In this document: piece after piece, positions 1,279 to 42,708 of the stretch | How the letters are laid out: every line of letters starts with the position of its first letter | Numbering within the stretch: position 1 is the first letter of the stretch | Source of the DNA: Fibrobacter intestinalis | GTDB lineage: Bacteria > Fibrobacterota > Fibrobacteria > Fibrobacterales > Fibrobacteraceae | NCBI RefSeq assembly: GCF_900167415.1 | Contig: NZ_FUWU01000022.1 | Span: 1-48,954, forward strand | Length of the DNA stretch: 48,954 bases | Direction: 5' to 3' | Notes under the pieces: model-generated | What the model saw: only the letters and a program-made list of their open reading frames with translations | The model's database searches: none | Told to the model about the DNA's origin: nothing | Position numbers and translations under genes: made by a program

Positions 1279-2031
1279 TCAGAGTCCGCAGAGTTCGCGG
1301 GCTTTCGCCTCGACCGCTTCGGAAAGCGCTTTTTCATCGTGGGCGTATTTTTTGATCAGCCTGACGAAAACGGATCCGGCGATGACTGCTTCGACGGAAT
1401 TTGCGATGGCTTTCGACTGTTCGCCTGTGGAAATTCCGAAGCCGCCGTACACCGCGGAACCTCCCTCCCGCACCTTGGATATGAACTGGAGGGTTTCATC
1501 ATCGATGACCGTCGTCGTTCCCGTGATGCCGACGCGGAGCGATGCGTAGATGTGCGGAAAACCCGCATGCGCCATTTGGGAAAGTCTCGCCTCGTCCATG
1601 CTGGGACTTGCCACGGGAATGTTCTCCATCCCGTATTTTTTACAAGCGGCGGTCAGTCCTTCGTCGTGGTCGAATGGCAGGTCGGGGATGATCATGCCGC
1701 GGACCCCCGCTTCGCTCGCACGCTTGCAAAAATTTTCGACTCCCGGCGTATAGACCAAAGAGGCGTAACTCATCAGGTAAATGGTCGTTTGCGGAAAAGC
1801 TTTGTGTATTTTGGCGATGAAGGCGAGGCCGTCGCTGACGCGGTAATGGCGACTTAGAACTTCGGTGCAGGCTTCCTGAATTGCCGGACCGTCTGCGGAA
1901 GGATCGCTAAACGCCAACTGAATTTCCAGAATATCGGCACCGCCCTTGACCATGGCCGAAGCCGCTTGAAAAGAGATTTCGTCTGTCGGGTAACCAGCGA
2001 CCAGATGACTCATCAATTTGATTTTAGGCAT
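1279..2031 (-). CDS. trpA: Tryptophan synthase alpha subunit
   Basis: TrpA (250 residues, slightly shorter than the usual ~265) cleaves indole-3-glycerol phosphate to indole and glyceraldehyde-3-phosphate; indole is channelled to TrpB. The TIM-barrel signatures are present: the catalytic Glu in ILEIQLAFSDP and the catalytic Asp in SDPSADGP, then GVRGMIIPDLPFD and the phosphate-binding GFGIS near the C-terminus. IQLAFSDPSADGP replaces the more common IELGVPFSDPLADGP. The start overlaps the end of trpB by 8 bp, so the two are translationally coupled in a two-gene operon. The other trp genes are not in this window. Regulation is probably by the attenuator ahead of trpB. Confidence 0.96.
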   Translation of the reverse strand: MPKIKLMSHLVAGYPTDEISFQAASAMVKGGADILEIQLAFSDPSADGPAIQEACTEVLSRHYRVSDGLAFIAKIHKAFPQTTIYLMSYASLVYTPGVENFCKRASEAGVRGMIIPDLPFDHDEGLTAACKKYGMENIPVASPSMDEARLSQMAHAGFPHIYASLRVGITGTTTVIDDETLQFISKVREGGSAVYGGFGISTGEQSKAIANSVEAVIAGSVFVRLIKKYAHDEKALSEAVEAKARELCGL

Positions 2032-3301
2032 TGGCTGTTTCTCCTAGTAATTTGGCGTTGTGAATATCCTTTTGTTCGTTGAGACGCTGCAATTCGCTTT
2101 GCAGGAAACGTTTCCATTCCTCCGGTCGGAATTCCGGGCTGGTAATGAAAACGTCCTTGTCCCCGCGCCCCGACATATTGATGACGATGGCTTTGTCTTG
2201 CGGAAATTCCTTGGCGATTTTCATGGCTGCCGCACCGGCGTGCGCGCTTTCCAAGGCAAAAAGAACGCCTTCGTTTTGCGCAAAAAAACGGACGGCTTCC
2301 AGAGCTTCTTTATCCGTCGCGCTGACAAATTCAATGCGCCCGCTTTCTCCCAAAGCAGCCAGTTGCGGTCCGATTCCGATATAGTCGAGTCCTGCGCTGA
2401 TGGAACGCGTCGGCAAGGAGTTCCCGTCTTCATCGACAAGAAAACGACTTTTATATCCTTGAATAATGGATTCTCTGCTGGCATTTCCCAGCATGCGGCA
2501 GGCATTTTCACCGATTTTCGGACCGATTCCGCCCGCTTCGACGCCGATGAGGCGGGGCGATTTTTGCTGGAGAAAAGGACTGAAAAAACCGATGGAGTTG
2601 GAACCGCCGCCGACACAGGCTATCATGGCTGCGACATCGATATTCCGTTCTTCGCATTGCGCTTTGACTTCTTCCCCGATAATGGATTGAAAGGACCGGA
2701 CAATATCGGGAAAGGGGGCAGGGCCTAAAGCAGAACCCAGAACGTAATGCGTGGAATCGGGATTGCTCGCCCAGTCGCGCATCGCTTCATTGACGGCGTC
2801 TTTTAAGGTGCGCGAACCGCTTGTCACCGAACGTACCTTGGCGCCATAAAGTTCCATAGCGGCGACATTGGGCTGCTGGCGACGAACATCGACTTCGCCC
2901 ATATACACGGTGCAATCCAAGCCGAGTTTAGCGCACGCCGCGGCGGTCGCAACGCCGTGTTGCCCGGCTCCGGTTTCGGCGATAATCCGTTTTTTTCCCA
3001 TGTATTTGGCTAAAAGGACCTGGCCTATCGCATTGTTTATTTTGTGGGCACCCGTATTCGCCAAGCCTTCGAGTTTGATGTAAATCTGCGCGCCGCCCAG
3101 GTGTTCTGTCGCTCGAGGGGCAAAAAGCAGCGGGGTTTCCCTGCCGATGTAATCTCTCCGGATTTCTTGCAATTCCGCAGAAAATTTCGGGTCGCGGGAA
3201 AAATGCCGAAACGCTTCTTCCAATTCGTCCAGAGGGCGCTTCAAAACTTCGGCGACGTATTTGCCGCCGAAGCGGTCGAAAAAGCCATGATTGCTGTTCA
3301 T
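2024..3301 (-). CDS. trpB: Tryptophan synthase beta subunit
   Basis: TrpB (425 residues) is the PLP enzyme that condenses indole with L-serine to give L-tryptophan. The PLP lysine lies in AHKINNAIGQ, the substrate loop in ETGAGQHGVATA and the phosphate-binding glycine loop in CVGGGSNSIGFF. Length and motifs fit the standard TrpB1 type that works with TrpA. An AAAGGA ribosome site lies five bases before the ATG. It is the first structural gene after the leader peptide and attenuator (3316-3433) and overlaps trpA by 8 bp. Confidence 0.97.
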   Translation of the reverse strand: MNSNHGFFDRFGGKYVAEVLKRPLDELEEAFRHFSRDPKFSAELQEIRRDYIGRETPLLFAPRATEHLGGAQIYIKLEGLANTGAHKINNAIGQVLLAKYMGKKRIIAETGAGQHGVATAAACAKLGLDCTVYMGEVDVRRQQPNVAAMELYGAKVRSVTSGSRTLKDAVNEAMRDWASNPDSTHYVLGSALGPAPFPDIVRSFQSIIGEEVKAQCEERNIDVAAMIACVGGGSNSIGFFSPFLQQKSPRLIGVEAGGIGPKIGENACRMLGNASRESIIQGYKSRFLVDEDGNSLPTRSISAGLDYIGIGPQLAALGESGRIEFVSATDKEALEAVRFFAQNEGVLFALESAHAGAAAMKIAKEFPQDKAIVINMSGRGDKDVFITSPEFRPEEWKRFLQSELQRLNEQKDIHNAKLLGETANA

Positions 3302-3315
3302 ATTCTTCCTTTACA

Positions 3316-3397
3316 AAAAGAAAAAGACCTTCCGAATACGTCCGGAAGGTCCTTAAAACCAGTGAAAAACACAAAAACCGGACTTATGTCAAGCCCG
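3316..3397 (-). promoter_or_regulatory. trp attenuator (competing hairpins and terminator)
   Basis: On the minus strand three helices can compete. Helix 1:2 pairs CGGGCTT (3397-3391, inside the leader ORF just after the Trp codons) with AAGTCCG (3385-3379), seven pairs including one G-U, five-base loop. The antiterminator could pair AAGTCC with GGACCTT (3352-3346, one bulge) or GTCCGG (3383-3378) with CCGGAC (3345-3340). The terminator pairs GACCTTCCG (3351-3343) with CGGAAGGTC (3334-3326), nine perfect pairs, followed by TTTTTCTTTTT, and ends 24 bases before the trpB ATG. A ribosome stalled at the Trp codons would cover CGGGCTT and free the antiterminator arm. This is the classical trp attenuation logic; folding was done by eye. 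Confidence 0.85.
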
Positions 3398-3433
3398 ACG
3401 CCACCAGCAGTTGGTGTTTCTTGTGTTTTGCAT
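3389..3433 (-). CDS. trpL: trp leader peptide (MQNTRNTNCWWRRA)
   Basis: A 14-residue ORF on the trpB strand with two adjacent Trp codons (TGG TGG, 3401-3406) near its end, stopping at TGA 38 bases before the attenuator terminator begins. It is followed by Arg-Arg-Ala, like the WW/WWR arrangement of known trp leaders. It has no Shine-Dalgarno; its ATG lies six bases after the -10 hexamer TATTTT, so it would be read from a leaderless mRNA. Two Trp codons in 14, exactly where attenuation needs them, make chance unlikely. Its role would be to sense charged tRNA-Trp, not to act as a peptide. Confidence 0.85.
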   Translation of the reverse strand: MQNTRNTNCWWRRA

Positions 3434-41442: not shown

Positions 41443-41446
41443 TTCG

Positions 41447-41519
<73 letters not shown>

Positions 41520-42633: not shown

Positions 42634-42635
42634 CG

Positions 42636-42708
<73 letters not shown>

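Follow-up and report, generated by a model that had tools for sequence, protein, structure and literature searches.

The trpBA locus and its leader

We analysed the trp region of Fibrobacter intestinalis contig NZ_FUWU01000022.1; the window is the whole stretch that was analysed, 48,954 nt. It carries trpB and trpA on the minus strand, and upstream of them a gidA/mnmG-like gene lies on the plus strand, divergent from trpBA. An AAAGGA ribosome-binding site precedes the trpB ATG (3301). The elements of the putative attenuator are all on the minus strand and are listed here in the order of transcription, together with the genes that they precede.

3468-3440, minus strand: sigma-70-type promoter, TTGCCA (3468-3463), 17-nt spacer, TATTTT (3445-3440), found by scan
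3433-3389, minus strand: leader ORF of 14 codons, MQNTRNTNCWWRRA, ATG at 3433, TGA at 3391-3389, with a predicted leaderless start; read from the sequence
3397-3391, minus strand: arm 1, CGGGCTT, partner of arm 2 without translation, from folding of the leader and of relatives
3385-3378, minus strand: arm 2, AAGTCCGG, which pairs with arm 1 or, via GTCCGG (3383-3378), with 3345-3340 (antiterminator)
~3376-3366, minus strand: 3' strand of an outer helix whose partner is the start of the leader ORF (~3428-3418) and which encloses helix 1; predicted fold
3354-3323, minus strand: terminator hairpin, AAGGACCTTCCG-GACG-TATTCGGAAGGTCTTT, then a T-rich tract, from a terminator scan and folding
3345-3340, minus strand: arm 3, CCGGAC, antiterminator partner, overlapping the top of the terminator left arm and the loop
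3301-2024, minus strand: trpB (tryptophan synthase beta), the regulated gene, TIGR00263 530.6 bits, above the curated cut-off
2031-1279, minus strand: trpA (tryptophan synthase alpha), from ORF and translation only; overlaps the trpB end, same operon

An earlier note on this DNA had described a Trp leader peptide ahead of trpBA, and its main features are borne out by the sequence. The ORF of 14 codons has tandem Trp codons as codons 10 and 11 (3406-3401), and helix 1, CGGGCTT with AAGTCCG (3397-3391/3385-3379), opens three bases past the second of them. The 136-nt leader folds with -50.9 kcal/mol, compared with -29.8 +/- 3.6 for shuffled sequences (z = -5.8). The outer helix is also predicted in relatives with different sequences, where covariation was judged by eye only.

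Promoter and start of the leader transcript

Six nucleotides (3439-3434) separate the -10 hexamer of the window from the leader ATG. With named contigs added, the comparison comprised 79 loci with 59 distinct sequences; a 17-nt spacer together with a gap of 6-7 nt between the -10 element and the ATG was found in 69 of the 79 loci, and the other 10 are registration shifts of the same TTGCCA/TAnnTT motif. From this conserved -10 spacing, the start site is predicted at or beside the A of the leader ATG. The trpBA mRNA is thus probably leaderless, as it had appeared to be in the earlier note.

When 168 genomes of the phylum were searched with the combined pattern TTGCCA-N17-TAnnTT-N5-8-ATG-N18-48-TGGTGG, 82 gave a match, and these belong to four genera of a single family; a few matches are not Trp leaders, for example a Tat-signal-like ORF (L201). 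The reversed pattern gave 0 matches, and by this and a shuffle control a chance origin was rejected.

Conservation of the trpB leader in related genomes

The earlier note had proposed a comparison with related Fibrobacter genomes as a check that could refute it, and its reading passed. The leader was found in the genus of the window genome (g1) and in a sister genus (g2, with records named Fibrobacter succinogenes and Fibrobacter sp.); of the 59 trpB loci examined in these two genera, 58 have it ahead of the gene, with the Trp codons and stems kept. All 59 distinct trpB leaders have at least two tandem Trp codons, and those of g2 mostly have three (...AIRFNRWWWGS...). The sole exception among the 59, locus L042 of genome G068, has lost the -10 element and the start codon by an apparent deletion and has kept the Trp codons and the hairpins; the switch was either lost in nature here or the sequence was misassembled. 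One Fibrobacter record (L098) has no trpB leader, and there trpCF is joined directly to trpB with a single leader before trpCF, an arrangement that fits the same regulatory plan. In genera g3 and g5 of the family, trpB directly follows trpF and no leader was found, nor was one found at trpB of Treponema, which is about 80% identical to Fibrobacter trpB.

Two observations concern trpB of Treponema itself. In a quick tree (window 2024-3301 and loci L085-L154), Fibrobacter TrpB falls within the Treponema TrpB proteins, with identities of about 80%, which suggests, from the sequences, that trpB may have been transferred between rumen Spirochaetota and Fibrobacterota. Some Treponema trpB genes (e.g. 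L087, L090, L121, L130) have palindrome-like GTTACT-N-AGTAAC repeats that overlap the upstream promoter and are perhaps repressor operators.

An intrinsic terminator precedes the first structural gene

Both the terminator scan and folding gave a terminator stem of 12-14 pairs with a 4-nt loop, the foot of which lies 21 nt upstream of the trpB ATG. The intrinsic terminator of the earlier note therefore stands, but its nine pairs do not, the stem being longer and stronger. When pairs were counted by registering the sequences on the loop (MAFFT aligned the terminator 3' arm poorly), the eight innermost pairs were present in 59/59 distinct sequences and the ninth in 58/59, and two-sided changes were seen at several positions, for example C-G replaced by G-C or by U-A. 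An intrinsic terminator that is both conserved and covarying thus stands before the first structural gene.

Such a leader might instead act on the translation of trpB and not on transcription, by translation-coupled or Rho-dependent regulation, and the outer helix and the long leader could indeed affect translation downstream. Against this, the terminator with its U-tract is intact in nearly all homologues, and the distance between terminator and trpB differs greatly, being about 20 nt in the window and over 200 nt in other homologues, which suits transcription control. We therefore hold a translational mode of action to be very improbable.

The antiterminator and the modelled switch

The mutually exclusive helices of the earlier note were recovered, and the antiterminator pairing that it had proposed, AAGTCC with the lower left arm of the terminator, was close; the best conserved pairing is instead GTCCGG (3383-3378) with CCGGAC (3345-3340), at the top of the left arm and in the loop, with a consensus core of GTC[C/T]G and C[A/G]GAC. 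The G-C, U-A and C-G pairs of the core are present in 59/59 distinct trpB leaders. The fourth position is likewise paired in all of them, as C-G in 53 and as U-A in 6, and a fifth pair is found in 53/59. Given only an alignment of 16 sequences, RNAalifold selected the antiterminator helix unprompted. A direct count over 16 sequences had 93.7% of cells paired, with a covariation score that was reached by 2 of 500 shuffles; only one pair has changed on both sides, so that compensation is modest, and part of the covariation testing of these 16 sequences gave weak results. Stronger support for the predicted antiterminator is provided by the other trp leaders described below, in which unrelated arm sequences have the same arm relation.

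The effect of a ribosome on this pairing was modelled by folding RNA that ended at the terminator loop while masking the footprint of the ribosome, which was taken to extend to 12 nt from the first base of its A-site codon. The antiterminator formed in 7/7 trpB leaders (-12.9 to -19.2 kcal/mol) when the first or the second Trp codon was occupied, and in 0/7 when the ribosome stood at the stop codon. The E. coli trp leader, used as a control, behaved in the same way (-15.6 on the Trp codons versus -4.4 at the stop), and so did nine more leaders from four genera, of trpE, trpB2 and trpCF, with unrelated arms. For the leader of the window, the stabilisation lost when the ribosome shifts from the Trp codons to the stop exceeded that of 490 of 500 shuffles; in nine relatives, the energy loss exceeded that of 486-500 of 500. 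In these models a stall at the Trp codons frees the antiterminator and a ribosome at the stop codon prevents it, which supports the enterobacterial type of attenuation logic that the earlier note had assigned to the locus.

At full-length equilibrium, most models favoured the terminator over the antiterminator even where the ribosome was stalled, and the E. coli trp leader did so too. In the sequence of the window, mask folding showed the antiterminator weakening already six bases past the loop. Since the completed terminator outcompetes the antiterminator in most models, that of E. coli included, the switch would have to be kinetic, and the modelling points to an attenuator under kinetic control.

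Leaders of the same design precede other trp operons

The earlier note had this type of control guarding only trpBA, which did not hold. The window genome has a second Trp leader-attenuator on contig 30, MIRFTLSNRWWWRTSISEYAC, before trpE and a following fused trpGD-like ORF, and its antiterminator arms are ATCGGAG with CTCCGAT. Leaders before trpE are present in all four genera. A leader before trpB2, a trpB paralogue, was found in g2 and g4 (e.g. MKFVASINFWWWQAQ), with arms GGAGCCTG and CAGGCTCC in the same relation as the trpBA arms, and some g2 genomes have a leader before trpCF (MQIKMASAAKKNFANRWWWGSIG). In the window genome, trpCF has no such leader and none was seen at trpB2. The trpE leader of G018, a g2 genome, is almost identical to its trpB leader, which suggests that a leader may have been copied from one operon to the other.

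Wherever the downstream gene could be identified, the leaders precede tryptophan genes only. The regions upstream of ilvB and hisG in six genomes, inspected by eye and with a simple scan for ORFs rich in Ile/Leu/Val or His, gave no similar leaders. The putative trpBA attenuator thus belongs to a family found at most trp operons of the Fibrobacteraceae.

These findings bear on the idea that the hairpins are a constitutive terminator or processing site next to a fortuitous ORF and merely shield trpBA from transcription that comes from upstream. In its favour are the strength of the terminator and the divergent gidA/mnmG-like gene upstream. Against it, the terminator sits between the conserved promoter and trpB and so ends the operon's own transcript; two genera share the Trp codons, the position of the stop and the antiterminator, and the leaders before trpE, trpB2 and trpCF repeat the design with other sequences. 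Insulation as the sole function thus appears very remote.

The trpCF-trpBA region of g2 also contains a conserved structured RNA with a strong promoter of its own (TTGACA-N17-TATATT), a long hairpin and an intrinsic terminator (L240-L257, L080, L081, L074, L023), which was detected in 17 of 31 g2 genomes by a DNA search that included partial matches. GATGAA..GCAATCC and TTTCATCAAGTGTTT are common to this RNA and the trpBA leader. It has no Rfam match, and could be a small RNA of unknown kind or a copy of the leader that has diverged.

Searches for other tryptophan regulators

Neither TrpR (TIGR01321; positive control E. coli) nor TRAP (TrpBP, PF02081; positive control B. subtilis) was found in any of eight genomes. 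In the window, which covers the leader, no T-box or other Rfam family was found at threshold, and the leader itself gave only sub-threshold, chance-like matches. The covariance model of the enterobacterial Trp_leader gave no match at the gathering threshold, and within the leader none with E values of up to 10. A T-box, a TRAP-bound leader, a Trp riboswitch or the like would account for Trp genes controlled through a terminator and an antiterminator, but in view of these searches, and of tandem Trp codons that it leaves unexplained, such an element of a different class is very improbable.

Proposed mechanism

At the level of sequence, the locus has a leader with Trp codons, the helices, the terminator and a characteristic promoter spacing, and these are conserved. 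We consider it very probable that the element upstream of trpBA is a ribosome-mediated transcription attenuator, for which we infer leaderless initiation, stalling of the ribosome, a switch of fold and a response to Trp.

Transcription would begin at the leader AUG or within a nucleotide of it, and a ribosome would load onto the leaderless mRNA and trail RNA polymerase. When charged tRNA-Trp is scarce, the ribosome would stall at the tandem Trp codons, covering arm 1 and leaving arm 2 free to pair with the emerging arm 3 (GTCCGG:CCGGAC); the terminator would thereby be delayed and the polymerase would enter trpBA. With ample Trp, the ribosome would continue to the stop codon, which lies between the two arms, and cover arm 2, allowing the terminator to form. 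Without translation, arm 1 and the outer helix would sequester arm 2, and transcription would stop as well.

Comparison with known attenuators

The mechanism is known from E. coli, and the predicted leaderless start and the unusual position of the antiterminator are minor variations of it. The leader resembles E. coli trpL, ahead of trpEDCBA, in its tandem Trp codons, in the 1:2, 2:3 and 3:4 helices, in a terminator before the first gene, in a stop codon placed such that a terminating ribosome can cover arm 2, and in equal behaviour in mask folding. It differs from trpL in that it has no Shine-Dalgarno sequence, the ORF apparently starting at the first base of the transcript, in that the antiterminator engages the terminator at its top and loop rather than at its foot, and in that an outer helix encloses helix 1. 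Fibrobacter moreover has several separate trp transcription units and, in the eight genomes searched, no TrpR was found. By the Rfam Trp_leader model, the Fibrobacter leader lies outside the enterobacterial sequence family.

A parallel for the predicted start of the transcript is found in the alphaproteobacterium Sinorhizobium meliloti, in which only one of three trp operons is attenuated and rnTrpL begins with the trpL ATG (PMC7298713). Its trpE(G) leader, trpL/rnTrpL, is a leaderless Trp leader of 14 codons that acts by transcription attenuation, as is predicted for the leader of trpBA. In the window genome, by contrast, at least trpE-trpGD and trpBA have such leaders, relatives have up to four leader classes, and no sequence homology to the S. 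meliloti leader is evident. One may speculate that the trp regulon of Fibrobacteraceae is run chiefly by leaderless attenuators at up to four operons, which would have arisen independently of the proteobacterial one, and that abundant terminated leader RNAs or their conserved peptides also act in trans, as rnTrpL and peTrpL of S. meliloti are reported to do; we regard this wider proposal as unlikely.

Trp leaders with terminators and antiterminators are also found in Actinobacteria (Corynebacterium, Streptomyces). In C. diphtheriae, candidate attenuators lie before trpB1EDGC and trpB2A (PMC1262725), a multi-operon arrangement that resembles that of Fibrobacter, whereas the phylum and the arm sequences differ.

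Our literature search found no paper joining Fibrobacter or its phylum with leader peptides and attenuation, in a search that covered few subscription papers; the earlier note had known of no such description either. In 2004, Vitreschak et al. reportedly made predictions of some attenuators for Bacteroidetes/Chlorobi as well, in the light of which the occurrence in Fibrobacterota would be less surprising. According to Naville and Gautheret, Proteobacteria and Actinobacteria were the only groups with demonstrated leader-peptide systems until they described a case from Firmicutes (PMC2965389), and a gammaproteobacterial origin with few transfers has been suggested for leader-peptide attenuation (PMC3766115). 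A well-conserved, apparently leaderless, multi-operon version in Fibrobacterota, where TrpR and TRAP were not detected, argues for a wider spread or an independent origin. It would also provide a simple natural system in which to see how leaderless translation couples to transcription, and it would explain how tryptophan is controlled in rumen bacteria that are major degraders of cellulose.

A further feature of the window

Elsewhere in the window, two tRNA-Lys(CTT) genes with equal scores lie about 1.2 kb apart on the minus strand (41446-41519 and 42635-42708), and this pair is probably a recent duplication.
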